Positions 3,816 to 47,297 of a stretch of 64,000 nucleotides of DNA are shown one piece after another; the first letter of the stretch is position 1, and each line of letters starts with the position of its first letter. The notes under the pieces are model-generated. The model did not search any database. It saw nothing but the letters and a program-made list of their open reading frames with translations, and was not told the DNA's origin. The position numbers and the translations under genes are program-made. The DNA is from Pyrococcus sp. NA2 (GTDB taxonomy: Archaea; Methanobacteriota_B; Thermococci; Thermococcales; Thermococcaceae): NCBI RefSeq assembly GCF_000211475.1, contig NC_015474.1, positions 1,240,001 to 1,304,000 on the forward strand, written 5' to 3'.

Positions 3816-4328
3816 ATGAAGGCCCCGATCTGTGAGGTTTGTTTAAAGACCGACGGAATTCTTTGTCCTGCTGATGAAAAGAAGCTTGAACAGGGAATTA
3901 TAACTGAGTTGGATGTTAAAATCTCCAGGATGCTCTATAAGCTACTTGGGGACGCTGATATCGAATTTAAGAAGGCAGTGGAAGCCGGAGATCTTGTCGT
4001 TCTTATTGTGGGGGAAGGAGACGTCCCAATCGTAATAGGAAAGGGCGGTAAGAACATAAAGTTTCTCACAAGAGAACTCGGAAAAAGAGTTAGGGTCATA
4101 GAGGGAAGGGAAATCAAGGGGACTGAAGATGTTAAGAAGTTGGCAATAGATCTTCTCTATCCAGCTGGAGTCTTTGGAGTGAACATCGTCTACAAGCCTG
4201 ATGGTGGAAAGTATTACAAGATACTTGTGTTCGGCAGGGACAGGAACAAATTGCCAGAGAAGGCTGAAGTCCTTGAGAGTATACTCAGTCAGATAACTGG
4301 CGTTGAAGCGAAGATATTCTTCATTTAA
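3816..4328 (+). CDS. KH-domain RNA-binding protein (NusA-like)
   Basis: Protein of 170 residues with a KH domain whose GXXG loop is GKGG at residues 75-78, followed by a second NusA-like KH half (LLYPAGVFGVNIVYKPDGGKYYKILVFGRD). The N-terminus holds Cys6, Cys9 and Cys17, a possible metal site. It resembles the archaeal NusA/KH family that binds RNA. Archaeal NusA itself is somewhat shorter, so I do not assign nusA. The ATG is preceded by GGAGGTGAG, and an AT-rich promoter lies near 3750. It is followed 15 bp later by a small coiled-coil gene, probably in one operon. Confidence 0.75.
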   Translation: MKAPICEVCLKTDGILCPADEKKLEQGIITELDVKISRMLYKLLGDADIEFKKAVEAGDLVVLIVGEGDVPIVIGKGGKNIKFLTRELGKRVRVIEGREIKGTEDVKKLAIDLLYPAGVFGVNIVYKPDGGKYYKILVFGRDRNKLPEKAEVLESILSQITGVEAKIFFI

Positions 4329-4343
4329 ATTTATTCCTGGGCG

Positions 4344-4742
4344 ATGAGGATTATCATAAAACCAGATAAGGGTTTTGGAAGGATAAAGGTTGAGCTTGGG
4401 AAAGATGTGACTAGGGAAATCTTGAGAATAAGTGAAGAGTTTGGAATTCCAATTGAAGAAGTAATAAAGTTGGCGATTCTTGGGGAGTTTAAGGAGCCCT
4501 CTTCTAATGTTGACGAACTTGAGAGAGAGGTTAAAGAGCTTGAGAGAAAAGTCTGGATGCTTGAAAAGGAGTTTGCACCCCTTAAATTTAAAGCGTACAA
4601 TCTAACTCAGGAGAATAAGTTGCTGGCAATAGAACTTTCTGGATTATTGGCAGAAAATGTTCAGCTCAAAAGATTCTTGAAGAGAAAGGTTGAGTATAAC
4701 AAGGAGTTAAGGAAGATAATCTCTTATTATATGGGGATATAA
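4344..4742 (+). CDS. Small coiled-coil protein, function unknown
   Basis: I do not recognise this 132-residue protein. It starts with a basic beta-like segment (about residues 1-20), then a helical part rich in Glu and Lys with heptad-like leucines from about residue 52 to 110, consistent with a coiled coil. It ends with a basic tail. It follows the KH-domain gene by 15 bp, so it may share its transcript and be an RNA- or DNA-associated partner. That is only context. The ribosome site before the ATG is weak. Confidence 0.65.
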   Translation: MRIIIKPDKGFGRIKVELGKDVTREILRISEEFGIPIEEVIKLAILGEFKEPSSNVDELEREVKELERKVWMLEKEFAPLKFKAYNLTQENKLLAIELSGLLAENVQLKRFLKRKVEYNKELRKIISYYMGI

Positions 4743-4803
4743 TTTTTGGGTTTGTTTCTCAAAGAAAGTTAAACCTTATATACCTTCCTTAAAATCTCCT
4801 ATA

Positions 4804-4887
4804 GGCGCATGATGAAAGGGACTGGCCCTGAGCGGATGATGAAATTATTTGTGCGGAGTTGATGAAGAGCCCTATGAGCGCTGACGC
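4804..4887 (+). ncRNA. C/D-box guide RNA with three C-like and three D-like boxes
   Basis: The sequence shows C box ATGATGA (4809-4815), a 12-nt spacer, D' CTGA (4828-4831), C' ATGATGA (4836-4842), an 11-nt spacer, CGGA (4854-4857), a third TGATGA (4860-4865), a 15-nt spacer and D CTGA (4881-4884). Spacers of 11-15 nt fit 2'-O-methylation guides that pair with rRNA or tRNA. GCG before the first C box can pair with CGC after the last D box. AGCG/CGCT can alternatively close a second, downstream C/D unit. A TATA box, TTATATA at 4776-4782, places the transcript start near 4804. The RNA overlaps the 3' end of nob1 on the other strand. It could be two tandem guides (a short one then a standard one). 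Targets were not identified. Confidence 0.65.
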
Positions 4888-5360
4888 TTTCTTGGTATTA
4901 ACTTAACTGGACTTCCACAATCTGGGCATATTCCCTCAGGAGGTTTCTCTCTGAATTTCCTTCCACAACCAATGCAAATGTATTGCCACTTTATGACCTT
5001 TTTAATTCCTCTCTTAAGGGTTCTGAATCTAAGTCCCAGGATTCTAGCTATGTTCTGTACATTGTAATCATCAGTGAATATTTCAGCTTTAAGCTCATAG
5101 GCAAGGGCAAGAACTTCTATATCTGCCTCGCTTAACTCTTCAAGCTCTCCAGTTTTGATTGCAATATCTTTTATTATCTTAATGGCCTCCCTAGATGGTT
5201 CAACAACCTTAACCTTGCCTGCAGATATTAGACTTTCCAGGAAGATTCTTGATTCCCTATCTCTAACCTCCTCAATCACCCTTGGGGTTGTGTATCCTTC
5301 GACCTCTACACCTTGAATAAAAACTGAAGAATCTAGAACGAGCCTCAAGTTGAACAACAC
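4872..5360 (-). CDS. nob1: Ribosome-biogenesis endonuclease Nob1 (PIN domain plus zinc ribbon)
   Basis: Archaeal Nob1 homologue that cleaves pre-16S rRNA at the 3' end of the small subunit RNA. The N-terminal PIN domain has the first acidic residue in LVLDSS (Asp10), more acidic residues in [14 protein letters not shown] and [11 protein letters not shown], and a C-terminal zinc ribbon of two CxxC pairs (CIGC and CPDC) near residues 130-152. Length of 162 is typical. The start is uncertain: GTG at 5360 overlaps the end of serS by 16 bp, and TTG at 5348, with AGGTG about 9 bp upstream, is an alternative. It is translationally coupled to serS. Its 3' end is overlapped by a C/D-box RNA on the opposite strand. 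Confidence 0.85.
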
Positions 5361-6715
5361 CTACCCTTCTTTTTCTCAACAGGAACGATTTCCTTGAATC
5401 CAGTATACTTCCATAGAACCTTTGGTATCTTCACGGTTCCATCTTCTTCCTGATGGTTCTCGAGGATCGCGACTATTGCCCTCGACGTTGCTATCGCCGT
5501 TGAGTTCAGAGTGTGCACGTACCTTGGCTTTTCATCAGTTCTGTCCCTGAACCTTATGTTGAGCCTTCTTGCCTGCCAATCGGTACAATTGCTTGCCGAG
5601 ACTACCTCTCTAAACCTTCCCTGTCCCGGCATCCAAGCTTCAATGTCATACTTCTTAGCAGCGACGTATCCAAGATCTCCCGTACATATATTGACAACCC
5701 TGTAAGGTATTTCAAGCTCCTGGAATAGCTCCTCAGCATTCCTTATGATCCTTTCATGCCATTCCCAACTCTCCTCTGGTCGAGAATAGACAAACTGTTC
5801 AACCTTGTGGAACTGGTGAACCCTGAATATTCCTTTAGTATCCTTTCCAGCCGTTCCGGCCTCCTTTCTGAAGCATGGGCTAACTCCAACGTAGAGGAGG
5901 GGAAGATCCTTTCCATCCAGTATCTCGTTTGCGTGCATTCCAGCTAAGGGGTGTTCCGCTGTTGGAATTAGGTAGAGGTCTTCACCTTCAACTTTGTATA
6001 TCACGTCTTCAAAGTCCTCAAATGTAGTTGATCCCTCCTCAACGAATCTCCTTACCATGTATGGAGGAATTACTGGGGTGAATCCTTTCTCTATTAGCCT
6101 ATCAAGTGCGAATCTTATCAGAGCGAGGTCTAATATTACTATCTCATTGAGGAGATAGTAGAACCTTGAACCGCTAACTTTTGCGGCTCTAGCAAAATCT
6201 GCCCCACCTAGGATCTCAAGTAGGTCAACGTGAAGCCTTGGCTTCCACTCTAAAACCTCGTATTCCATTTTTCCTTGGCTCTGCTCAAGAAATCTCTCTA
6301 AATGTCCTTTCCACACCTTGGCCTTTCCCCAAAATCTTATTGGAACGTTGTCATTTTCATCCTTTCCCACTGGAACCGTTGGGTGGGTTATGTTTGGCAA
6401 TCTCCATAGGTAGTAATCTATTCTCTTCCTTAGCTCTTCTACCTCCTTTTCAAGGGTCTCTATCCTTCTAACGATCTCTTTGCTCTTCGCGAGTAGATCA
6501 TCAATTGGCTCTCCTCTTTTTCTCTTATTTCCTATCTCTATTGCTATCTTGTTTCTCTCATGCCTTAGCTTATTTATTTCCTTCAATTTTGCTCTCCACT
6601 CGGCATCCAACTTAAGGATCTCATCTATCCACTTTACCTTCTCAAGCTCTCCTCTCTTTATGAGATCATTCTTTACGAGATCCGGATTTTCACGAATGAG
6701 TTTTATGTCCAGCAT
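5345..6715 (-). CDS. serS: Seryl-tRNA synthetase
   Basis: Class II aminoacyl-tRNA synthetase that charges tRNA-Ser. The 456-residue protein has the N-terminal long antiparallel coiled-coil arm (about residues 30-110, rich in Lys and Glu) that grips the tRNA variable arm. Motif 2 is [17 protein letters not shown] followed by HQFHKVEQF, and motif 3 is near the C-terminus ([17 protein letters not shown]). It is the ordinary bacterial/eukaryal-type SerRS rather than the methanogen type. The ATG at 6715 has GGAGGGG upstream. Downstream nob1 overlaps its stop. Confidence 0.95.
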
Positions 6716-6763
6716 ATTCGAGCCCCTCCATAATTAATTCGGGAACTAAAAATCATTTTTGGT

Positions 6764-7873
6764 TCAACAATTATAGCAGAGCAATGCAGCCCTTTTAAGT
6801 AATATCACCCTCTTCCCACCACTTTTGTCCAACCTATAAATTGATATCTTGTTCAGATGGTGAATCCTTTTCCTCTCAAGTGCAACAATACCAGTCTCTC
6901 TGAGAACCTTAACAAAATCTTCCCACCTTATGTTCAACCACTCCTTTAGCTCATCAAAAAGCTCCTTTTCAACCACTAGGTACAGTTTACCATCTATGAG
7001 ATACCTTATTTTTCTCTTTGGAATTTCTTTTCTGAGCCTCCACCTTGCGTGAGTGGGTGCCTGAACTGCAAGAATTGCCTTTTCCATCGGCTCACCATAG
7101 AGCATTCTGAGGAGAATCTCTGCTATATGATTTATTCTATTTGGGACTCCGACTATGTCTCCCCTGAGAACTATCTTCCTTCTTAGAACCTCTATTCCCT
7201 CTTCTTCCAATTTATCCCCTATCAATCCAGTTGTGCCCTTCTTGTCTCCTTTCATGTCTACTATCCCACCGATTATGAAGGCTTTTTCTTTGAGATCTCT
7301 CTCCGATAAAACTTCTTTAGCGTGAGGATCCAATAAGATAACTCTGCTTATTCCTTTCTCTCTTAAGAAATTTGATGTCTCCCCCCTATATCCGACAATT
7401 TTATTGAGGGGTAATTTGCTTCTACGTTCAAATTCTTCATTTAACCATGTTATAACGAGCTTTCTTGGTAGCATCATTCTCCTCATTACAGCGTATGTTT
7501 CCCTTGTCTGGAGCAGAATTTTGTCTTTCTCCTTTGGAATGTGCCTATCCCACAGCATTAGGTCAATTATTATGTAGGGATAATCGGGTAATCTACCCTC
7601 TAACTCTTTACCTGTCACCACGGGTTTAAACTTATCGAGCATGCAGGGCCTTACGTAAGCGAACTTTGAGCCTTCAACTTTTCTCCCATTTAGATCCCAG
7701 GCCTCAACAGTCGGTTCGTCAAGTTCAACTATGGCCCCGTCTCCCTCCAAAAGTAGTAGTGCCAGCTCTTGGTAGATATCCTTACCGGAGGGCCACTTCC
7801 TTGAGAGTGTTCCAACTTTCTCAATGCCCTTCTCCTGTAGTATCTCTCTTAAAACGTCTCCTGGCTTCTTCAT
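6764..7873 (-). CDS. trm10: tRNA (position 9 purine N1) methyltransferase Trm10
   Basis: SPOUT-fold methyltransferase that makes m1A9 and/or m1G9 in tRNA using SAM. The 369-residue protein has an archaeal N-terminal domain (about 1-105), the catalytic SPOUT domain (about 110-270) with FIIGGIVDMKGDKKGTTG and PNRINHIAEILL, and a C-terminal extension, as in the Thermococcus kodakarensis enzyme. The ATG at 7873 has only a weak ribosome site. The gene stands alone between serS and yjbQ on the same strand. Substrate choice (A or G) cannot be read from sequence alone. Confidence 0.8.
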   Translation of the reverse strand: MKKPGDVLREILQEKGIEKVGTLSRKWPSGKDIYQELALLLLEGDGAIVELDEPTVEAWDLNGRKVEGSKFAYVRPCMLDKFKPVVTGKELEGRLPDYPYIIIDLMLWDRHIPKEKDKILLQTRETYAVMRRMMLPRKLVITWLNEEFERRSKLPLNKIVGYRGETSNFLREKGISRVILLDPHAKEVLSERDLKEKAFIIGGIVDMKGDKKGTTGLIGDKLEEEGIEVLRRKIVLRGDIVGVPNRINHIAEILLRMLYGEPMEKAILAVQAPTHARWRLRKEIPKRKIRYLIDGKLYLVVEKELFDELKEWLNIRWEDFVKVLRETGIVALERKRIHHLNKISIYRLDKSGGKRVILLKRAALLCYNC

Positions 7874-7913
7874 CGTTCCGGAGCTGGAAACTTAACTTTT
7901 AAATGTTCCGGCT

Positions 7914-8327
7914 TTACTCTCCAACTATCTGGAGAATGACCCTCCTTCTCCTTGGTCTTGTGTCAAGTTCCACAAAGAATATTTGTTGCCACGTTCCTCT
8001 GACAAGCTTTCCGTCTATTATTGGGAAAGTTAAGCTTGGTCCTAGGAGTGTTGCCCTCAAGTGCGAATGTGCATTATCGTCGAATCGATTGTGAAGGTAC
8101 TCCCTGTCTTTTGGAATTATTTCCCTTAAAAATCTTCTAAAATCCTCGAGGAGTCCTTCTTCATGTTCTATGGCAACTATTGCTCCTGTTGCACCGGGGA
8201 TGAATACTGTTATCATTCCGTTCTTAACTCCACTCTCCTCAACGAACTTCTCAACTTCTCTGGTTATGTCAACTAGATCTATCTCGCCCCTAGTTGAAAA
8301 GTGAAGCTCTTTGCTAACGACTACCAT
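7914..8327 (-). CDS. YjbQ/UPF0047 family protein
   Basis: Small cytosolic protein of the YjbQ family, some members of which show weak thiamine-phosphate synthase activity. The family signature is at the C-terminus: LLGPSLTFPIIDGKLVRGTWQQI followed by FVELDTRPRRRRV, preceded by the conserved NAHSHLRAT histidines. I place the start at ATG 8327 because AGGTG lies six bases upstream; an in-frame GTG at 8336 overlaps that ribosome site. It sits 12 bp after thiR, which supports a thiamine-related role, though the true substrate is unsettled. Confidence 0.8.
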   Translation of the reverse strand: MVVVSKELHFSTRGEIDLVDITREVEKFVEESGVKNGMITVFIPGATGAIVAIEHEEGLLEDFRRFLREIIPKDREYLHNRFDDNAHSHLRATLLGPSLTFPIIDGKLVRGTWQQIFFVELDTRPRRRRVILQIVGE

Positions 8328-8338
8328 CTCTTTCACCT

Positions 8339-9229
8339 CTACAGGTAATTTTCTATTTTCTTTAACTTTCCTATCACCTCTAAAGGACTGCTACCAAAGA
8401 TGTAAACACAGGGTTCAACACCATGTCTTCCTGGATCTACGATGACATCAACTTCCTCCTTCATAAATACCTTAGATACTTCATTCTCAACTTCCTCTAT
8501 TGACTTGAGGTTTTGAGGGAGATACCTTACTTTGAGTTTTGCCATCTCTATAGCCCTCTTTACGTCCTCCCCGAATCTTATATTAATTACACTCCTTATC
8601 TTTGGATTGTATCTTGAAATCTTTACTAGTAATCGAGCTGTGTGCCTACTAACTCCAAATTCAGGTGGCATCGCATATGGTCTTCCCTTTATTACTGTTA
8701 TTCTCCCCGGAATTGCTGCTACTTCACTTTCGTCTCTTGGATTTGGTAAAGAATAAGCGAAATTGCTTCTTATTTCAGGTATCAGCTCTGCAAACTTTTC
8801 ATCTCTGAGAAGGATATCAAGAGCCCTAGATAGCTCTTCTATGACAACGTTCCTATCCGAGCTAATGATTATCTCTCTGCAGACATTCCTTGATATTCCA
8901 GAGTATCTTTCATAAGCTTCACAGAATTTGTCTTTTGTTAGGAATTCTAGGAAGCTCCTTTCTAAAATCTTCACTATTTCTTCTCTTTTTGCACCTTTCT
9001 TTATCATCTCCGCTATTGAAATTGCAAGGTTTTCAATGTCCTCTTCAATTTCCTTTAGAACCTGTGGGGGAGCATATCTTGTGATGTACTTACTAACCAT
9101 TGCCTGCGTTATCCCGAGTTCTCTCGCTATCTTGCTCTGTGAGAATCCCTGAGAGTTCAATATTCTAGCAACTTTTGCCCTTATCGCTGGTAAAACCACC
9201 TCCGCCCAAAATGTCGTCGGTGTCTTCAC
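8339..9229 (-). CDS. thiR: ThiR-type regulator: HTH plus ThiN domain
   Basis: Predicted transcription factor of thiamine metabolism. The N-terminus has a helix-turn-helix (about residues 10-50 with GFSQSKIARELGITQAMVSKY). The C-terminal ThiN domain (about 135-296) resembles thiamine-phosphate synthase and is expected to bind thiamine phosphate as effector. ThiN occurs fused to ThiD as an enzyme or to an HTH as regulator; here it is the HTH form. I place the start at GTG 9229, with GGAGGGAG 5-12 bases upstream; a TTG at 9244 is in frame. The start still overlaps the end of the upstream surface-protein gene by about 65 bp. yjbQ follows 12 bp later. Confidence 0.75.
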   Translation of the reverse strand: MKTPTTFWAEVVLPAIRAKVARILNSQGFSQSKIARELGITQAMVSKYITRYAPPQVLKEIEEDIENLAISIAEMIKKGAKREEIVKILERSFLEFLTKDKFCEAYERYSGISRNVCREIIISSDRNVVIEELSRALDILLRDEKFAELIPEIRSNFAYSLPNPRDESEVAAIPGRITVIKGRPYAMPPEFGVSRHTARLLVKISRYNPKIRSVINIRFGEDVKRAIEMAKLKVRYLPQNLKSIEEVENEVSKVFMKEEVDVIVDPGRHGVEPCVYIFGSSPLEVIGKLKKIENYL

Positions 9230-10319
9230 GCCTTCTCCCTCCAAGTGCTACTATGAGACTGATAAGGGCCAACAATCCAATTCCACATGTGCCCTTTGAA
9301 GGGGGATCTTTGGGTAGTTTTTCCTCATATTCCCTGAAGTTCGTTCCTATGCATCTCACGAGTGTAGCATTTGATGCATTAAAGTATGGCTTCCATTTCC
9401 CATCATAGAACCCTATTCTTGCGTTGTATCCAGCGTACCCCCACCTAGCAATGTTGCTTATTTCTCTTATGTCATTATCATTTATTTTTATTACTCCAAT
9501 GCTTCTCAGCCATTTAAGTTCTTCTGATATTGCAATACTTGCGTTCAACTCCTTGGGATCAATCTTTGGTACTATAGCTTCTCTAGTTATCTCTCTAAAT
9601 TTCCGAGATGTATTGCACCCGAATAATTCTGAAATTTCTTTGAGGGTTTGATTAGTTAGCTTTCCTTTAACCTCAATCCTAACGTGAGTTCTTACTCCTA
9701 CGATGTTCTCAATGCTAACATTATGGTTCTTCAGACATTCAATGAAAGGCTTCGTTGGTTTCCATGTGCAGTATCCATTGTAGCAACCACAGGTTGTTAG
9801 TTTTAGGCACTTATACCATTCCTTGTATATGCAAGTTGAGAACACCGTCTCATTTTTAGATACGCAAAGTTCACCTGAGCATCCTTGAATTTTACAATCT
9901 GCATCTGTTTTGCACTCCTTGCCACTCTCTGGAAATGCAAAGACACTCACATTGTCCTTGTAGAAGTGGTAACCCTCTATGTTCCATCCTTTAGCCTCTG
10001 CCTTCTCTAAGATGATTTCAATTGGAATAATTGCCGTGAACTCGTTGACATATATCTTCTCGCTTTTAAATTCAGTTGGAATCTGAATTCGTACGTGTAA
10101 CTTTGAATCGTTCCAGATCATAACTATAAGCCTTGAGTCATAATGAGATCTGTAAATTACCTTATCTCCCTCGATTATGATGTTTCTCATGTGAAACAGA
10201 GGTTCCAAGTTGTAGTTACTTAGCTCAACTTCGACGGCATAAGTGTCCTGGGGGAAGAAACATGCATTTGCCCTTGGAACTAATAATAAAAGGAAAAGTA
10301 TGGGGATTATTCTTTTCAT
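9165..10319 (-). CDS. Secreted Cys-rich surface protein with CGP-CTERM-like anchor
   Basis: Exported protein with a signal peptide (MKRIIPILFLLLLVPRANAC, residues 1-20). A cysteine cluster near residues 130-175 (several Cys, with CGCYNGYC) recalls the heavy-Cys domain of Thermococcales surface proteins. Near the C-terminus TCGIG is followed by a hydrophobic helix and GGRRRE, which matches the layout of CGP-CTERM anchors but with CGI instead of CGP. Oddly, the frame continues about 18 residues past the Arg cluster into thiR. I choose ATG 10319 because GGTGA lies just upstream. Function is unknown. Confidence 0.7.
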   Translation of the reverse strand: MKRIIPILFLLLLVPRANACFFPQDTYAVEVELSNYNLEPLFHMRNIIIEGDKVIYRSHYDSRLIVMIWNDSKLHVRIQIPTEFKSEKIYVNEFTAIIPIEIILEKAEAKGWNIEGYHFYKDNVSVFAFPESGKECKTDADCKIQGCSGELCVSKNETVFSTCIYKEWYKCLKLTTCGCYNGYCTWKPTKPFIECLKNHNVSIENIVGVRTHVRIEVKGKLTNQTLKEISELFGCNTSRKFREITREAIVPKIDPKELNASIAISEELKWLRSIGVIKINDNDIREISNIARWGYAGYNARIGFYDGKWKPYFNASNATLVRCIGTNFREYEEKLPKDPPSKGTCGIGLLALISLIVALGGRRREDTDDILGGGGFTSDKGKSC

Positions 10320-36823: not shown

Positions 36824-36901
36824 GGACCGGTAGCCTAGCCAGGACAGGGCGGCGGCCTCCTAAGCCGCAGGTCCGGGGTTCAAATCCCCGCCGGTCCGCC
36901 A
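36824..36901 (+). tRNA. tRNA-Arg (anticodon CCT)
   Basis: A full cloverleaf is visible. The acceptor stem is GGACCGG/CCGGTCC, the anticodon stem GCGGC/GCCGC encloses CTCCTAA, so the anticodon is CCT and reads AGG. The T-loop is GGTTCAAAT, the discriminator is G and CCA is encoded. No intron is seen. A T-rich stretch at 36910-36935 follows as likely terminator. The 3' half is a common integration target in archaea. Confidence 0.95.
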
Positions 36902-37054
36902 GATATTCATAGTTTTTTCTTTCTCTGTATCCCTTTTCTTGACAATATACTGAGCAAACCAGCGATAGTTACCCCCAAGAATGTTCTTTCTCATCAGGTC
37001 TTTTCCTTTGGTGAGTTTCACTATTGAGGAGAGAGCGACACTTATGGTTCTCAT
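36902..37054 (-). pseudogene. Possible int(N)-like integrase fragment reading into the tRNA
   Basis: A minus-strand open frame starts at 37054 with a basic segment (about 48 residues, including LGGNYRWFAQYIVKKR) and runs into the antisense of the tRNA 3' half, giving the usual antisense peptide GGDLNPGPAA. In SSV-type integration the integrase gene is split and its N-terminal fragment lies against the tRNA in just this way. No catalytic Arg/His/Tyr is in this piece, so identity is inferred from position. Confidence 0.35.
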
Positions 37055-37509
37055 CGAGACCTCTTGTGTGTTACTTCCTTCTAGGTTTACTATTTATGAA
37101 AGTAATATTTGTGGCAGATCTAAGTTTAGTTCAACACATTTTTCCCTTATTATGATGTAAAATCGGATATACAATCAAGGACAATGAAGAGCTTTTGAGT
37201 TCGAAAGTGCTTTCGAGAGTAGAGAAACAATGGCAATAATTGGAAAGGGAATAGATAGGCGATCACTTGAACATTGAGAGGGCTAATCAAAATCTTCGCT
37301 AACCTTATCGATGCCTTTCGTGAACACATATCTCGAATTTCACAACTTTCATTTTATACTTCACTCTTTCTAAACTTCATTAATAGTAATTTTGCTTTGT
37401 ATTGCAATTCTTTTTAGTATTATTGCTTCGTAAAATTTTGTTGAATTATCAACTCAAGAATAAAACTTATTTTATGAAGATTCTGAAGTTATAATAGTGG
37501 TGATTGTCG
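37055..37509. other. Intergenic stretch without an intact gene
   Basis: AT-rich region between the tRNA/integrase-like fragment and the first paralogue. Short open fragments (for example one with IKIFANLIDAFREHISRI near 37287-37400) look like broken coding sequence but cannot be assigned. A possible promoter for the downstream gene lies near 37465-37480. Confidence 0.4.
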
Positions 37510-38958
37510 ATGAATCATGAGTTTATAAAAAGAGAAATAAAAAATATCCTCCAGTTTTATGGATTTACTGCGAGGGAGGAAGCTCCTGCAATGATCCATG
37601 ACAAAAGCGGTGTAGGCAGGGTTGACGTTGTCGGTTACAAAGATGGTGTCTCAATTGGTGTTGAAGTTGTGGAGAGTGGAGACGTTGCTAGGGACGCCAA
37701 AAAGCTTGCAGTGAACAATTATACTTACAAATACATTGTAGTTCTTGAGCACTCGAAGAAGGTAGGCGAGATCATCGTTGATGGGCAGAAAATCAAAGTC
37801 CTCGATCCAGAATCTTTCGAGCACGAGCTGAGGAGGGACTTGGGAATCCCACCCACGCACCCGTATTATTCCTTTACGAAAATTCCTGAGGTCTATAAGC
37901 CTTTGAGGAGCGGTAAGCTAGAGGAGTTGTTGGAAGAGCTTGAAGAGAGTGGTCTTGAGAACTTCGCCGACGATGTCATAAAATATCTTGCAATAATATA
38001 TATCCCAGGGCGCTTGCCTGTCAAGGTTAGCTATCCTGCCACTAAATCGATAGGGCAGGAGTATAAGTCTGTGAATGTTCCACCACAAATCCTCTCAATT
38101 CTCACAAAGTTCAATCTCGTGGATACATATGGAGAAGGATCAGGGTATTACAGGAAGTGGTTTGCATATCCAACTAAGAAGGGTGAGGAAATTGCACATG
38201 AAATCATATTGCGTCGCATTGAGGAGAACAGGCACATTCTTGGAGACATGATTCACCAGCACGGAGAAAAAATCTGGATTGTTTTGCAGGGTTCAGTGGA
38301 TTATGTGGCTGGCTGGATTGGGGCAAGATATCCAATAGAAAGTATTAAACCTCCAATAGGGGATCTTAGGCAATCCAAACATGAGGAGGATATTGTTGAC
38401 ATTGCTGAACATAGTAGGTTGCCGGGGTGGGGGATACCCGGAATCCTTCCACAACAAGTTAGATATGTTCCAGACCTTATTGCACTGTTCTGCAACTTCT
38501 TGGCCAGAAGTGCACTAAGAGACTTTGCCCTGCAGTTCTTTGGAGAACTTGAACACCTAGGCTTGGCAGTCCAAGAGTATAGTTATACCTCGGCGGGGGA
38601 GGCTTTTGAACTTGACTACTTTGCTCCCAAGGAGATTGTAGATTTCTTCCTTGCCAGAACAAAGCCACCAGCAAACCTCAGCTATTACGCCCAGCGCTTC
38701 GGTGCCTACTACGTGCTGATTGAAGTGGGTCAAATTGTGCACCCACCAACTGCTAGGCAGAAATATGAGAAGTTGATGAGAACTCTTGAACTGCCAGAGG
38801 AGATCGTTGCAGAAGTTCTTAGTGATATGAATAAGAGGGGGATAACTTCAAAGCTAATAACTAAGAAGGACAAGGCGCCGTTTATAATCCTTGATGAAAA
38901 GAGCTTCAGGGAGTACTTGAAGTTTGGCCTCTCCACAATCGTTAACTACTTCCGCTGA
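37510..38958 (+). CDS. Unrecognised protein with PD-(D/E)XK-like N-terminus, paralogue A
   Basis: A 482-residue protein of a family I do not recognise. The N-terminal region has GVGRVDVVG (Asp39) then GVEVVESGD (Glu52) and RDAKKL, resembling the PD-(D/E)XK fold with an altered ExK motif (Lys replaced by Val). A winged-helix-like part (about residues 175-235) follows, then a helical C-terminal half rich in aromatics and ending with KAPFIILDEKSFREYLKFGLS. ATG 37510 has GGTGAT six bases upstream. A close relative lies at 41951-43429 on the opposite strand and a broken third copy at 40040-40175. Function is unknown; nucleic-acid cleavage or binding is a guess. Confidence 0.75.
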   Translation: MNHEFIKREIKNILQFYGFTAREEAPAMIHDKSGVGRVDVVGYKDGVSIGVEVVESGDVARDAKKLAVNNYTYKYIVVLEHSKKVGEIIVDGQKIKVLDPESFEHELRRDLGIPPTHPYYSFTKIPEVYKPLRSGKLEELLEELEESGLENFADDVIKYLAIIYIPGRLPVKVSYPATKSIGQEYKSVNVPPQILSILTKFNLVDTYGEGSGYYRKWFAYPTKKGEEIAHEIILRRIEENRHILGDMIHQHGEKIWIVLQGSVDYVAGWIGARYPIESIKPPIGDLRQSKHEEDIVDIAEHSRLPGWGIPGILPQQVRYVPDLIALFCNFLARSALRDFALQFFGELEHLGLAVQEYSYTSAGEAFELDYFAPKEIVDFFLARTKPPANLSYYAQRFGAYYVLIEVGQIVHPPTARQKYEKLMRTLELPEEIVAEVLSDMNKRGITSKLITKKDKAPFIILDEKSFREYLKFGLSTIVNYFR

Positions 38959-39140
38959 ATTTCTTCTTGTTTTTAATTTTTTCTTTTCTCGGTATGTCCA
39001 ATTAAAGGAGAATAATAAAAATAAGCTTAAAGGACAAAGGTTGAAAAGGTCACCGAACAACCATTCACCTTATATTATAACTTCATATAACAATCGAGGT
39101 AACCTTCTCTTCCAAGAAGTTATTGGGGTAACTCAATAAT
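38959..39140. other. Intergenic stretch with no recognised feature
   Basis: AT-rich DNA after paralogue A with a T-rich run (38960-38990) that could terminate its transcript. I see no gene in it. Confidence 0.4.
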
Positions 39141-39330
39141 ATTATGCTTCAGCAGTCTCAGACCTAAGAAAATTGCCACAAGGAACAGCAGTCTATACTC
39201 CTTCGACTTGTCCTTGCTGATATGTTCGTAAAGTTCTCTCACGTATTTTTCCGTATAGAAGTGTATCAATCCCTGTTCTATGCAAAGGGGTACTTTTCCT
39301 CTTCCTTGTTAGTCTCATAAAAGGAAACAT
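39141..39330 (-). pseudogene. Broken gene fragment of unknown family
   Basis: A minus-strand frame of about 60 codons without a start encodes CIEQGLIHFYTEKYVRELYE and ends LLFLVAIFLGLRLLKHNII before a stop. Just upstream another frame continues with MFPFMRLTRKRK, consistent with one frameshift near 39295. It looks like the tail of a degraded gene. I cannot name it. The stretch from 39331 to 39590 holds only short scraps. Confidence 0.4.
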
Positions 39331-39590
39331 AAAGAGATGTTCATAAAGCCAATGCAAGCTACCAACATGCTTTATATAATCACCTTCAGGTTTTCGATTG
39401 TGATGGAGGATAGCATTCTCAGACCAGTCATGACAACTTCTGCATATACGTTTGCCATGTTTGTGGCTGGAAAGGGATAATTGTCAGTCAAATTTCTCTT
39501 TGTGCAAAGATTCATATTTCTGAGTTGATAATAAGGCGATCCTAGAAGCTTCCAAGTTGCAGATCCAAGTTTAAATACTTGTCGGTTTAC

Positions 39591-39714
39591 TAAATTTTTT
39601 ATGAAGTGATGTTTTTTATGATTAAATTCCATTTCTTTACGCGACTGGTTTGGTTTCAGAGGAACACATTGAAATAAATAATATAATAAAGCTGGCATCA
39701 AGGAATATCCTCAT
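39591..39714 (-). pseudogene. Truncated vapC toxin remnant (PIN start only)
   Basis: At 39714 a minus-strand ATG begins MRIFLDASFII, the characteristic start of a Thermococcales VapC PIN-domain toxin including its first catalytic Asp. It overlaps the end of the vapB frame as in intact vapBC operons. After about 11 residues the resemblance ends and stops follow, so the toxin is lost. Confidence 0.5.
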
Positions 39715-40266: not shown

Positions 40267-40467
40267 ATGCTCAAGGTTAAGATTCACAGGCAGGTCAAGA
40301 GGCAGAGGAAGAGGGGTAAAGTCTATAACATCGAGCAGAGGGTTATCTACATTCCTTCGAAGGCCGAACTTCCGGAAGAAGTTTACATACTTAGTCCACA
40401 AGAACTTCAAGAGCTAGTTGAACTAATTCCAGAGGAGAAAAGGCCAGACTGGCTGGTGGTGGAATGA
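40267..40467 (+). CDS. Small basic protein, putative antitoxin or regulator
   Basis: A 66-residue protein with a strongly basic start (MLKVKIHRQVKRQRKRGKVYN), a beta-like RVIYIPSKAELPEEVYIL and an acidic C-terminus. No family is recognised. ATG 40267 has GGTGGGG just upstream; the frame opens at 40255. Its stop overlaps the start of the next gene by 4 bp. The layout (small DNA-binding-like protein first, autoregulatory operators, coupled second gene) suggests an antitoxin or repressor, but this is inference. Confidence 0.6.
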   Translation: MLKVKIHRQVKRQRKRGKVYNIEQRVIYIPSKAELPEEVYILSPQELQELVELIPEEKRPDWLVVE

Positions 40468-41015
40468 AACGCTTCAAGAATCTCATCGTTGTAATAGATA
40501 GGAGCATGGAACACAAAAGCAAAAAAGGCTTTACAGTGCTCGCCCTAATTGGAGTTTGGGACTCAGAGATAGGCTCTCTTAAGCGGATAGTATTCAAGGA
40601 ACTCAATCTTAAGCATGCCAAGAAGTATGGGAGTTCCAAGAGAGTTAAAATGGACATGTTAAAAGCAGCACTTAAAGGAGAACGTACGGATTTAATAAGC
40701 CATATTTACTTCGTCGGAATCTACAGGATTCCTGTGACCGGAAGAATCCGTGAAAAGGATCTTCCAAATCGCTTTTATGAGGACTTTAAAAAATTGTACC
40801 CTGACTGTAAATTTGTGCTAGGAGACAAAGATATAATATCAATTCTTAAAAAATACTTTCCAGACTTGAGGATCATAGAAGAAAAAGAAAGTAGGATCAC
40901 TATCCGCCAGTATAAACATCTAATGATCCTCGCCGACAATATAGCATACTTTGCAAGAATTGCTTACCTCGAGAATGACTTTGAGTTCTTAGAACTCCTT
41001 AGAAGAGGACCATAA
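40464..41015 (+). CDS. DUF3800-like RNase H-fold protein, putative toxin or nuclease
   Basis: A 183-residue protein whose pattern recalls DUF3800-type RNase H folds: an N-terminal strand with Asp12 (LIVVIDRS), FVLGDKD with Asp121 and ILADNIAYFAR with Asp158 on a C-terminal helix. These three acidic residues could form a metal site. The family name is tentative. It is translationally coupled to the 66-residue protein (ATGA overlap), under the twin operators, and its end is followed directly by a strong stem and T-tract. Confidence 0.6.
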   Translation: MKRFKNLIVVIDRSMEHKSKKGFTVLALIGVWDSEIGSLKRIVFKELNLKHAKKYGSSKRVKMDMLKAALKGERTDLISHIYFVGIYRIPVTGRIREKDLPNRFYEDFKKLYPDCKFVLGDKDIISILKKYFPDLRIIEEKESRITIRQYKHLMILADNIAYFARIAYLENDFEFLELLRRGP

Positions 41016-41950: not shown

Positions 41951-43429
41951 TCACCCCTCTTGGAATTTTTCTGCTATTGCTGTGAGACTGAACTTGATGT
42001 ACTCCTCAAACCCCTTCTTATCGAGAATGATAAACGGGGCCTTCTCTGGATCCTTTACTAGCCTCGATGTGATGCCACGCTTGTTCATCTCAGCAAGCAC
42101 TTCAGCTATCAAATTCTCGTCTAACTCCAGTGTTCGGACAAGCTTCTCATACTCCTCCCTTGCAGTTGGTGGGTGGTAGATATCTCCAACATGTAGGAGG
42201 GTATAGTATACCCCGAACTTCTGGGCATAATAAGCAAAGTTTCCTGGGCGTTTTGTCTTGTAAAGGAAGAACTTGAAAACTTCAATTGGAGCCTTGATGA
42301 CATCCCATATTGGCCTAGCACGAGAATCTCGCTCCACATCGGAGATTGCAAGGCCGTAAGTCTCCAACCTCTTGAAGAACCTAATGGCATCCTCTTTCAA
42401 CACAGTATTAGTCAGGAAGTTTGAGAACATCAGGAATAGTGGATGCTCTGGTAAGCTCATGTAATCCAAGTCGAAGTGCGAATACCTTCCTAATATTCTA
42501 ATATACCTCGCGGTCTTTAGTATTGGATCCTCTTTTTCCTTTTCAAAAGCGCTTGAATAGTCTCTAGTAATTATTTCGAGTGAGTAGTAGTCTGGAGTGT
42601 ACCACAATGAGCCATGCAGTATTATCCATAGTTTATCCCCATACTCCCTCGCAATCTCCTCGAGCTTAGACTTGTGTTCCCTAATACGTTTGAGAATAAG
42701 TTCATGGCCAACTTTCAATCCCCTCTGGGTTGGATAGGCAATTGTTTTTCTCCATTCACCACTCCCAATCCTCTCAGTATTTACGAGGTTCAGCCTCTGT
42801 AGGATTGATAGTATTTGGGGTTTTATATTTACACTCTCGTATTCATACCGAGTTGGAGGGCCAAAGGGATTATAATGAACACGAAGCTCAACAGCCAGCG
42901 CTCTCGAGATGTAGACCATTCCGAGTGCATCCAGAACCTCCTCGGTAAAGTTCTCGAGCCCATACTCTTCAAGCTCCTCGATGACCTTATTCAGCTCTTT
43001 CTCGCTTGATTCAAGAAAAACTTCTGGTGGCTTCTCAACTCTTGACTGGAAGAAGTATGGGTAGTCTGGTGGTATGCCAAGGTCCTTGCGGAGTTCATGC
43101 TCGAAGGCCCTAACGCTGTCGAGAACTTTCACTCTCTTCCCATCAACAATAATCTCATCAACTTTCTTCGAGGGGTTTAGGACGATTATATACCTGTAAT
43201 CATAGTTATTCATCGTCAGCTTCTTGGCATCCCTGGCAACGTCTCCACTGTCCACAATCTCGACACCAATCGTTATGCTCCCCTTCTTACCTACAACATC
43301 AGCACGGCCAACGCCACCTTCAGGTTTTATCCCATAAACCTCTGCCCTTGCACTAAAACCATAGAAACGAAGCACCTCTACAACTTCTTTCTTCTTAATC
43401 TCATGCTCATTATTCTTGGTATCCTCCAT
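41951..43429 (-). CDS. Unrecognised protein with PD-(D/E)XK-like N-terminus, paralogue B
   Basis: A 492-residue relative of the protein at 37510, pointing toward it. It shares GGVGRADVVG, GVEIVDSGDVARDAKKL, VNIKPQILSIL, PPTAREEYEKL and AEVLAEMNKRGITSRL in the same order. The catalytic-like Asp and Glu are conserved and the ExK Lys is again replaced by Val, so both copies share the altered motif. ATG 43429 is chosen, with GGTGGTG just upstream; GTG codons up to 43441 are in frame. Function unknown. The intervening DNA contains a broken third copy. Confidence 0.75.
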   Translation of the reverse strand: MEDTKNNEHEIKKKEVVEVLRFYGFSARAEVYGIKPEGGVGRADVVGKKGSITIGVEIVDSGDVARDAKKLTMNNYDYRYIIVLNPSKKVDEIIVDGKRVKVLDSVRAFEHELRKDLGIPPDYPYFFQSRVEKPPEVFLESSEKELNKVIEELEEYGLENFTEEVLDALGMVYISRALAVELRVHYNPFGPPTRYEYESVNIKPQILSILQRLNLVNTERIGSGEWRKTIAYPTQRGLKVGHELILKRIREHKSKLEEIAREYGDKLWIILHGSLWYTPDYYSLEIITRDYSSAFEKEKEDPILKTARYIRILGRYSHFDLDYMSLPEHPLFLMFSNFLTNTVLKEDAIRFFKRLETYGLAISDVERDSRARPIWDVIKAPIEVFKFFLYKTKRPGNFAYYAQKFGVYYTLLHVGDIYHPPTAREEYEKLVRTLELDENLIAEVLAEMNKRGITSRLVKDPEKAPFIILDKKGFEEYIKFSLTAIAEKFQEG

Positions 43430-43657
43430 CCGCACCACCACTCAAGTTATTACTTTAAGGCAATATAATAGTTTTCGGAGAAAATCCAATAAGAAAATGT
43501 TATCAAATATGGGTAATAATGAACAAAAATGGACATAACACTCTTTGGGAGTCATTTTTGTGCAAAAAGTTCATTTGAAAAAACTTTCCTAAGGATATGC
43601 TAAACCGTCACGGAGTTAATTAACTGATAATGCCTTTACAAAGAATCTAGTTTTGGA

Positions 43658-44347
43658 TTAGTTCTTTCTTAATTTTCTTAAGAAGTTAGCAGGTGGAAAC
43701 TCTATTCCCCTAAGTTTATATCCGAGTTTCAATGTACTTAGTATGACTAGACATTCTACTTCATATTTAGAAGGTTGTACATCATCTAATTTGATTGCTT
43801 TTCCATATGCAACCCCTTCTATCAGCTTTCTTATAGCCCTGTATAGAAGTTTTTTTGGAGGAGTTTCTAGGTAACAGAGATATCCAATATATAAGTCTCC
43901 ATATTTAGCTCTCCAGTACAATCCTTCAAATGCTCTATTATATTTCCTTTTTCTAATAGCCTCCCAGTTTGCATATTTTTCTAGGTCATCTGGAACTCTG
44001 AAAAAGGCCATTAGATACTCATTTGCTGTTGCAACAAAATCGATAGTGTAGCCCTCTTTTTTAGCGAGGAGAGCATAAGTGTAAACTTGTCCTATTGGAA
44101 ATTCATTCCAGGGAGAATAATCAATAGCCCTCTTTAGTTCGATGATTAATAGTGGCTTCCCTGCAAAAAATACTGTTATATCGGGTGTTCTTCCTCCAAC
44201 ACTCCAAGATGTTGTTACATCAATTAGGGTTTTCGCAAGTCTGTAGGATTTTTTAATATCATTTAACACTCTAACGAATTCTTCTTGGAGTTTCTTTTCA
44301 TCAACAACTATGGATGGTGGCAAGTATTGTGGATTCCTTTTTCCCAT
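43658..44347 (-). CDS. PD-(D/E)XK nuclease-like protein
   Basis: A 229-residue protein with a clear PD-(D/E)XK core: TPDITVF (Asp56), 13 residues later LLIIELKRA (Glu70-x-Lys72), then a conserved-looking Gln in GQVYTYALLAKKEG. The C-terminal half is helical and basic. ATG 44347 is chosen because GGAGGT lies 9 bases upstream; an upstream extension to 44416 would overlap the helicase gene. It follows the helicase gene by 28 bp and is surely in its operon. I infer a DNase partnered with the helicase. Confidence 0.75.
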   Translation of the reverse strand: MGKRNPQYLPPSIVVDEKKLQEEFVRVLNDIKKSYRLAKTLIDVTTSWSVGGRTPDITVFFAGKPLLIIELKRAIDYSPWNEFPIGQVYTYALLAKKEGYTIDFVATANEYLMAFFRVPDDLEKYANWEAIRKRKYNRAFEGLYWRAKYGDLYIGYLCYLETPPKKLLYRAIRKLIEGVAYGKAIKLDDVQPSKYEVECLVILSTLKLGYKLRGIEFPPANFLRKLRKN

Positions 44348-44375
44348 TTCTAAACAACCTCCCATGAAGATTGGT

Positions 44376-46574
44376 CTAGTTTGTGCTCTCATAGAATTCC
44401 AGGAATTTTTCCACACCCCTATATCCTATTGCAAGAAGGTTGAGCTTCACTAGCTCAAGGATCTTCTGATAAGTGCTTTCGTCATTTCTGGTTACGTTAT
44501 AGTAATTTATTTGAGCCTCTAGACGTATCCCCACTCCAACGTCCAAGGATATTACCACCTTAGGGGAAAGTGACATGTTTCTCTCATTATATCTGCTGAG
44601 GTCCACATATATCAAAAGGCGTTTTGACTCCTTGAGACTCCTAAAGTTTTCTTCAAACATGAACACTTTATTCCTAATTCTCTCCAAGATGTTATCAATG
44701 TGCTTGAATGGAAACACTCTCATGAACAGCCTCAATATTGACTTCCTGTCTATCCTAAAGAACACATTTTCACAGAAACCTTTCTTCTCTGAAATGCAGT
44801 AATAGTATAATCCTTTCAGTTCTTCTGAGATTAGATCAGACATCATCTCAATATCATAAACATAGAATACACGGTTCTCTCTCATCGACTTGTCAAGAAC
44901 TTTAGTAAAGCTACCCTTGTTAATGAGCTTTTCTATCCTGTTTAAGGCGTCCTTAACATCGTCCAACCACCTTCGGAATGGATTGGTGATTATTAGGGAC
45001 AATACAGCACTGAGCATCTCGTCGGACTCTACTCTAAATCCCCTGTCCTCAAGGATCTTCAGGAATTCTCTGTCGCTTTTTGCAAGTTTCGTAAGGTAAT
45101 TTATTGGATCACTCAGCTCTCTACCCTGGGTCATTAGCGTGAACGGAACTGCAACATCATTGTAAATGCTCGAAAACTTGTCGAGAACATCTAGCACCTT
45201 TGACTCGGGACCCTTTTCACCTAAATTGTATATGATATAGCTTACATCAACCCCTTCACTGTATAAGTTCCATAGTGCCTCTTCAAGACTGTAGTACTCC
45301 CTAGTCTTCGGAGTCATTGAGATCACTAGGTACTTTATCCTCCTTGGACTTGCCACTCGGATTAACCTGCCTAAACGCTGATAAAACCTCAATGGACTCT
45401 TTGGAATGTCAGTCATCACGAGCAGTCCAGCCTCTGGAATGTCCACACCCTCTTCGCCAACAAGTGTGGAAATTATGATATCAACGAGTCCCTCCTTAAC
45501 TCTTTTAATTAGGTCCAGCCTCTCATCCTTACTCATATCGCTGGTTAATACTTCAACTCTGTCCTGTGAAAAGCCTAAGAGCTTCACGATCACATCTTTG
45601 AACTCGTAAGCGGTGGCCTTGCGTGACGTGAACACTATAACTGGTTTCAGCTCATCATTGTCTTTGACATCGTATACTGTGAGCACTTCGCACAACACTC
45701 GAGCCTTATGAGAAGGCTCACTAGAATTGCACAGTCTCTCAAAATCTAGCTCATATAAAACCTTATTTTTTGCTATTGCCTTCCCTAAACTTTCACAAAA
45801 TGCCATCTTGCCATAATTAGCCAGTGTGTTCTCGAGGAATTTTACTGTCCTCGAGTCTCCATCAACCATACCCAAGAACAGCTTCTCATACACCCTCTCC
45901 TCTAACTCGTTCATGTCGGCATCAAACAAGTCGGCAATCGCCCTCGGGGGTTGGAATGAGGTAGAGATCTCGGATAACCTCTTAAAATCGTATGTAAGCA
46001 TTTTTGGCACTCCTAAAAGTAGTTCAACTCTAAAGTCTAATAGACGTCTCTTTTTACTTGGGAGTAGAGCTGTAAAGCCGAATACATAAGATGGATCTAG
46101 GTTGATAAGTAATTCGGTGTAATACTTTCCACCAAATGCGTGATGTATTTCATCAATTATCACGACGTTGAACTTTTCCCTTATTGTAGATACACATTTT
46201 AAAGCCGTCTGAGGTGTTGATATAATCACCTTCTTGTTCGGATCTAAGAAGCTGTGGCAATTTCCCTCATACTCTTTCCCCACAAGATCACCAAAGACTC
46301 TGTTCCACAGCTTGGAATACATCTGATCACACAGGAATCTAGTGGGTTCAAGCACTAGAACACGTGAATTGAGGAGTTTAAGACTGTAGTATGCCATAAA
46401 TATCTCGATCAACGTCTTGCCACTTCCAGTAGGCATTGACACTACAATGAACCTGTCTCCTCGGGTTGTAGAGTTAATTATGTCATTAATTACATATTCT
46501 TGGTATGGCCTAAGAGAGAAATCAAGCTTCTCCTTGAGCATGGCATTAAACTCTTCTATAATAGTTGCACTCAT
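44376..46574 (-). CDS. Hef/RIG-I-like superfamily 2 helicase
   Basis: A 732-residue ATPase with two RecA domains. Motif I is MPTGSGKT (47-54), motif II is DEIH (141-144), motif III is FTALL near 170. The second RecA domain has STLVGEEGVDIPEAGLLV and motif VI FYQRLGRLIR. The EEGxDIP...QRxGR style fits the FANCM/Hef/RIG-I/MDA5 branch that moves on duplex nucleic acid. About 300 C-terminal residues of unknown type follow. It lacks the fused XPF nuclease of Hef; a separate PD-(D/E)XK gene follows instead. ATG 46574 has GGGGAG upstream. Not the housekeeping Hef, by length and divergence. Confidence 0.8.
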   Translation of the reverse strand: MSATIIEEFNAMLKEKLDFSLRPYQEYVINDIINSTTRGDRFIVVSMPTGSGKTLIEIFMAYYSLKLLNSRVLVLEPTRFLCDQMYSKLWNRVFGDLVGKEYEGNCHSFLDPNKKVIISTPQTALKCVSTIREKFNVVIIDEIHHAFGGKYYTELLINLDPSYVFGFTALLPSKKRRLLDFRVELLLGVPKMLTYDFKRLSEISTSFQPPRAIADLFDADMNELEERVYEKLFLGMVDGDSRTVKFLENTLANYGKMAFCESLGKAIAKNKVLYELDFERLCNSSEPSHKARVLCEVLTVYDVKDNDELKPVIVFTSRKATAYEFKDVIVKLLGFSQDRVEVLTSDMSKDERLDLIKRVKEGLVDIIISTLVGEEGVDIPEAGLLVMTDIPKSPLRFYQRLGRLIRVASPRRIKYLVISMTPKTREYYSLEEALWNLYSEGVDVSYIIYNLGEKGPESKVLDVLDKFSSIYNDVAVPFTLMTQGRELSDPINYLTKLAKSDREFLKILEDRGFRVESDEMLSAVLSLIITNPFRRWLDDVKDALNRIEKLINKGSFTKVLDKSMRENRVFYVYDIEMMSDLISEELKGLYYYCISEKKGFCENVFFRIDRKSILRLFMRVFPFKHIDNILERIRNKVFMFEENFRSLKESKRLLIYVDLSRYNERNMSLSPKVVISLDVGVGIRLEAQINYYNVTRNDESTYQKILELVKLNLLAIGYRGVEKFLEFYESTN

Positions 46575-46740
46575 AATACTCCCCAAAAGTTTATTGAAAT
46601 AAAGAAGAAATATAAAGTTTTTCTGCCTTGGAATCAAATTCATCATTATGAGTGGAAGTGTTATAGTAGCTTGATGTTGTAGGAATTAGTAAGAGCTCTT
46701 CTTGAAACGAAAAAGAATTTAACGTAGCATGAAAACTTAA

Positions 46741-46800: not shown

Positions 46801-46844
46801 GACATTTTTAACTTTACGATCTTATGTAAGCAAGGGTGCTTATC

Positions 46845-47297
46845 ATGAAAACATTCCTCACCGAACAACAGATCAAGGTTCTCGTTCTTAGGGCAAAGGG
46901 GCTCAAGCAGAGTGAAATTGCTCGAATCCTTAAGACCACGAGGGCCAATGTGAGTATACTTGAGAAGAGGGCCCTTGAGAAGATAGAGAAGGCCAGAAAT
47001 ACCCTCCTTCTCTGGGAACAGATAAACTCGAAGGTCAGCGTAAGCGTTAGGGCTGGAGAGGATATATTCACCATCCCGGAGAGACTGTTCAGGGAAGCTG
47101 ACAAGGCAGGAGTTAAGGTTCCGTACAGCACTGCTGAGATAATAGCATTTCTGGTCGAGCATGCTCCCATAGAGGATAGGCTGGCGAAGAGGGACTTCGT
47201 AATATTTTTAGACTCAAAGAATAGACTGAGGATCAGCGAATGCCTAATAGAGCTCAACATAGAAGGGAGGGAAAATGATAGAATCAGCGATTGCTGA
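46845..47297 (+). CDS. Tfx-family DNA-binding regulator
   Basis: A 150-residue protein with an N-terminal helix-turn-helix (LTEQQIKVLVLRAKGLKQSEIARILKTTRANVSILEKRA, residues 4-43) like Tfx regulators, then a C-terminal domain of about 90 residues containing VPYSTAEIIAFLVEHAP. ATG 46845 is chosen (MKTFLTEQQIK). It overlaps the following antiporter gene by 23 bp, so the two are co-translated and this protein may control ion homeostasis genes. It lies just beyond the accessory island. Confidence 0.8.
   Translation: MKTFLTEQQIKVLVLRAKGLKQSEIARILKTTRANVSILEKRALEKIEKARNTLLLWEQINSKVSVSVRAGEDIFTIPERLFREADKAGVKVPYSTAEIIAFLVEHAPIEDRLAKRDFVIFLDSKNRLRISECLIELNIEGRENDRISDC

Follow-up and report, generated by a model that had tools for sequence, protein, structure and literature searches.

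Two open reading frames lie one behind the other on the reverse strand of the window, the 64,000-nucleotide stretch of Pyrococcus sp. NA2 DNA analysed here. The first (44376..46574) encodes an SF2 helicase or translocase of 732 amino acids, counted from its ATG, in which a core (about residues 1-440) is followed by a C-terminal domain (about residues 441-732). The second (43658..44347) encodes a free-standing PD-(D/E)XK protein of 229 amino acids, whose homologues are the N-terminal nuclease domains of type IIG restriction-modification enzymes. Both were found where the preliminary description had placed them, and so was the 28-bp gap between the helicase stop and the nuclease ATG (44348..44375, same strand), which contains an SD-like GGAGGT (44362-44357) nine bases 5' of that ATG. 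Two further signals on the reverse strand were read by eye: an SD-like GGGGAG of the helicase (about 46584-46579) and a TATA-like TTTATAT (46610..46616), a candidate promoter at a plausible distance 5' of the helicase ATG. An alternative in-frame start would give a 756-aa helicase, but because this start sits upstream of the TATA-like box, 732 aa is the better reading. Transcription of the nuclease may start at the helicase promoter.

Both genes occupy a variable spot, bordered on one side by a tRNA-Arg(CCT) gene (36824..36901, forward strand) and on the other by tfx (46836-47297). By blastn, the segment 40006..46706, in which both genes lie together with X2 and two small ORFs, has no counterpart in the nearest genome (L140), where 167 bp are found instead; it is thus a 6.7-kb insertion relative to that genome, and a second one of 2.8 kb lies at 36915-39681. 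The contents of the spot differ elsewhere: in L141 about 65 bp separate tRNA-Arg from tfx, in L140 the spot holds vapBC and in L142 another gene. Compared with the intact vapBC of L140, the window's vapB is frameshifted and of its vapC about 14 codons are left, so that the decayed toxin-antitoxin genes said to fill the island are confirmed for one pair. No tRNA-derived att repeats of 14 bases or more were found at the spot.

Other genes of the spot deserve mention in their own right. Two inverted paralogues, 47% identical, lie at 37504-38958 (forward strand, 484 aa) and 41951-43441 (reverse strand, 496 aa); both sit in segments missing from the nearest genome, and neither has a Pfam or NCBIfam match. 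The inserted segment also carries a 183-aa ORF (40464-41015, forward strand) with a weak PHROG match to phrog_31239, of unknown function (E 7e-6).

In the helicase, Pfam recognises ResIII (E 2e-28) and Helicase_C (E 4e-19). Its SF2 motifs are intact, P48-T54 (Walker A), D141-H144 (DExH) and Q399-R406 (motif VI), and they are conserved across 26 relatives, the alignment of which is also the basis of an AlphaFold model (pLDDT 90, pTM 0.83). When this model was compared with the PDB by Foldseek, the best folds were FANCM (9el5), an LGP2:MDA5 filament, MDA5 and Hef; the matches to FANCM and to RIG-I/MDA5/LGP2 have E values of 1e-19 to 1e-14 and TM-scores of about 0.4-0.5 on the query. The model also places helices 223-300 between both RecA domains, a candidate for the helical insertion that the group has between or within these domains. 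By sequence, the best PDB profile match is Hef (1wp9). Thus, the FANCM/Hef/RIG-I style that had been attributed to the protein is right as a description of its fold, and so is its separation from the housekeeping Hef, an identity that we considered and rejected: against the Hef model NF010337 the helicase scores 84 bits where the cut-off is 610, it has no ERCC4 match, and the same genome encodes a true Hef elsewhere (G000:C1:436369-438615).

The C-terminal domain likewise proved to be as unfamiliar as first supposed. No Pfam family matched residues 441-732, and their profile gave nothing better than E 0.015 against the PDB sequences. In fact, this is the fastest-evolving part of the protein, with a mean pairwise identity of 29% vs 52% and 59% in the two RecA domains. 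No specific model for the family exists in Pfam, NCBIfam or PADLOC, and our literature searches returned no paper that names it; a name may be given in a survey of the SF1/SF2 helicases of archaea from 2016 (Chamieh et al., Gene 576:214), to which PMC10003305 refers. As the best explanation, we propose that the helicase belongs to an uncharacterised archaeal family of FANCM/Hef/RIG-I-type SF2 translocases that are encoded by single genes. Judging from the fold, it most likely spends ATP on moving along duplex nucleic acid or on remodelling branched DNA, and the fast-evolving C-terminal domain would choose the substrate.

How widespread is this family? An alignment profile scan of genome contigs, combined with whole-genome searches, gave 40 further copies, spread over 37 archaeal genomes or records, a count that we tallied from the search tables once entries with the same contig and position had been merged. 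Eight copies belong to the window's genus, eight are Thermococcus-type copies of the same taxonomic family, two are Methanocaldococcus-type and 22 come from Thermoproteota and relatives; matches near E 1e-50 (G087, G512, G523, G602, G662) were left out as more distant helicases. The Thermococcales copies usually adjoin ileS (for example at L019, L020, L024, L025, L174 and L177), and at four Sulfolobales-type loci (L043, L119, L121, L123) the neighbour is an acetyl-CoA synthetase-like gene, which we named from its sequence. The ileS locus of the window's own genome (L143) has no helicase of this family beside it. In most Pyrococcus genomes examined the gene is absent or broken: broken copies occur in G002, G003, G006 (two) and G008 (two), and in the G005 copy a piece of the Walker A region is missing. 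Because G008 was assembled from a metagenome, the breaks there may be errors. Outside Pyrococcus, the family is kept by purifying selection, because dN/dS is 0.03 to 0.13 in four pairs of intact copies, synonymous sites being near saturation in three of them.

The window copy does not follow the phylogeny of its order. In the tree it pairs with a fragment from M. jannaschii (SH-aLRT 95), outside the Thermococcales clade (99). A full-length Methanocaldococcus-type copy (G489), found later and so absent from the tree, comes from the genus group that also includes the genome carrying the M. jannaschii plasmid, and the window helicase is 66% identical to it vs 46-50% to the intact Thermococcales copies. 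Because of this grouping, and because identity to Methanocaldococcus is higher than to its own order, the window helicase looks horizontally transferred. The M. jannaschii fragment is itself plasmid-borne (NC_001732.1; L027 275-1051): it is C-terminal, 51% identical to the window copy and annotated as a hypothetical protein. No relative of the helicase's own family was found in IMG/VR, where the matches were weak, confined to the helicase core and none with the C-terminal domain.

Several copies have neighbours reminiscent of defence, all of which (Argonaute, HerA-NurA, cas and type IIG genes) were chosen by eye without a background rate. In an Acidilobaceae genome (L041), a Piwi-domain protein, a prokaryotic Argonaute of 829 aa (4273-6762, forward strand), is encoded directly upstream of the helicase (7073-9307). 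Both Methanodesulfokora copies (L046 6264-9051, L048 6559-8218) have HerA and NurA genes nearby with a small uncharacterised ORF between, Pfam supporting NurA at both loci and HerA in L046. In G005 (L018 3820-16908), the helicase lies with a fragment of the end of ileS inside a CRISPR-cas locus, the cas genes of which were named by eye; an intact ileS is present elsewhere. Separately, two more distant Hef-kind helicases (L026 7255-9794, L179 6728-9507) directly follow an endonuclease IV-like gene in two genomes and may form a conserved pair with it.

The nuclease has a very different background. Its Pfam result is solely a sub-threshold HSDR_N match (residues 49-75), and E17, D56, E70, K72, Q87 and Y91 are invariant in an eight-row alignment, which includes the Asp56 and Glu70-x-Lys72 that had been singled out. 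Its closest relatives are the N-terminal domains of 950-1240-aa proteins of Thermoproteota and a few other archaea (with L104, 36% identity over 156 residues, E 1e-21); every one of the six large relatives scanned contains N6_Mtase and Eco57I domains. The best PDB fold match of its model (pLDDT 76) is the type IIG enzyme BpuSI (E 1e-4). Relatives, conserved residues and fold therefore agree with the earlier assignment to a PD-(D/E)XK family other than XPF. No free-standing relative turned up in 101 relatives, 115 genomes of the phylum, 300 Thermoproteota and 250 relatives searched by profile (overlapping sets), and no relatives were found in plasmids, phages or IMG/VR. We propose, as the best explanation, that the protein was once the N-terminal nuclease domain of a type IIG restriction-modification enzyme and has become detached from the parts for methylation and specificity. 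If folded and active, it would be an endonuclease without sequence recognition of its own. Disruption in place of a restriction-modification gene was rejected as its origin, since the flanks contain no methyltransferase remnant.

Are these two genes then a system? The preliminary description had proposed a conserved pair acting in defence and had suggested looking for its co-occurrence elsewhere. This part of the proposal did not hold: by tblastn and profile searches of the neighbourhoods (one flank being visible on short contigs), 0 of the 40 other helicase copies adjoin the nuclease gene, the nuclease domain is elsewhere the N-terminus of type IIG enzymes, and no second pair was found. Nor did the outcome that had been named as fatal to the proposal, presence of the pair at a single locus throughout Thermococcales, come true; what recurs in that order, beside ileS, is just the helicase without the nuclease. 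To explain these results we propose that helicase and nuclease are probably two unrelated acquisitions, chance neighbours in the tRNA-Arg/tfx insertion spot, the variability of which would explain how two strangers came to lie side by side. Consistent with this, the G+C contents of the two genes are unlike (35.4% and 41.1%), the 6.7-kb segment that holds them is absent from the nearest genomes, the helicase groups with Methanocaldococcus and not with its own order, and the relatives of the nuclease are type IIG domains.

On the other side of the balance, the genes share one orientation with 28 bp between them, the nuclease is preceded by an SD-like site of its own and has kept all its catalytic residues, and at one locus (L042) the helicase has a complete type IIG enzyme, nuclease domain included, about 2.9 kb away, the nearest approach that we found. 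Together with the intact helicase motifs, the close spacing on one strand, the SD-like site and the preserved active site would suit a young, lineage-specific helicase-nuclease system, in which the translocase would recognise foreign or abnormal DNA and deliver the nuclease to it, as in type I restriction. Such a system seems to us improbable, however, given that the pair in the window is the single example and that none of the searched genomes holds a second.

What the helicase family does on its own is a separate matter, and the readings that follow are compatible with the two genes being chance neighbours. The one that we favour, at somewhat less than even chances, is that of a stand-alone genome-maintenance translocase, non-essential and partly redundant with Hef, that would remodel forks or branched DNA. 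FANCM and Hef are among the closest solved folds, the gene has recurrent chromosomal places next to ileS or the acetyl-CoA synthetase-like gene, and purifying selection acts on it in Thermococcus and Sulfolobales. However, a maintenance function fits less easily with a gene that is missing or broken in most Pyrococcus genomes examined, that was seemingly transferred between orders and that left a fragment on a plasmid. These same features, patchy presence, frequent breakage and transfer, together with the fast-evolving C-terminal domain and the copies beside Argonaute (L041), HerA/NurA (L046, L048) or cas genes (L018), could instead reflect a single-gene defence protein or a RIG-I-like nucleic-acid-sensing ATPase spread by horizontal transfer. 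We regard this as possible though rather unlikely: most copies are surrounded by housekeeping genes, the neighbours of a defence kind are the eye-picked ones described above, and the PADLOC matches are confined to the helicase motifs. Most speculative of all, and very unlikely in our judgement, an undescribed FANCM/RIG-I-type family with a new C-terminal domain might act alone in defence against mobile elements and, in this genome, have recently been coupled to a nuclease domain captured from a type IIG enzyme.

Thus, unless a second example appears, the pair as such no longer belongs among the candidate defence systems. The helicase family still merits attention, as an archaeal relative of the FANCM/Hef/RIG-I/Dicer group that is encoded by a single gene and present in hyperthermophiles of several archaeal lineages. 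In particular, whether its substrate is branched DNA or double-stranded RNA would bear on the origin of the group's sensing helicases in eukaryotes.

Comparison with known systems places the two proteins apart. A named defence system was ruled out when PADLOC gave generic helicase-core matches only and none for the nuclease, and the earlier remark that known helicase-nuclease defences differ is borne out, neither protein having a specific match. As in the window, the helicase gene of Hachiman (HamA-HamB) adjoins a nuclease gene, but the HamB model covers just helicase residues 41-144, at 24 bits. In XPB-Bax1, too, an SF2 helicase of archaea is partnered by a nuclease; XPB matches the window helicase more weakly in profile and fold, and the window pair differs in not being conserved and in having a nuclease of the type IIG kind. 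FANCM and RIG-I/MDA5/LGP2 are the best fold matches of the window helicase, from which it departs in its C-terminal domain, for which neither Pfam nor the PDB holds a sequence match. With Hef, the euryarchaeal FANCM homologue (1wp9, NF010337), it has the SF2 core and overall helicase fold in common, and what it is missing is the XPF-type nuclease domain; its score also falls far below the Hef cut-off. Type IIG enzymes (BpuSI-like, with an Eco57I-type methylase) combine a nuclease with N6-adenine methyltransferase and specificity parts in one protein, whereas the window nuclease, of just 229 aa, is without the latter two; what it shares with them is the nuclease domain, with the conserved E-D-ExK-QxxxY and BpuSI as its best fold match.
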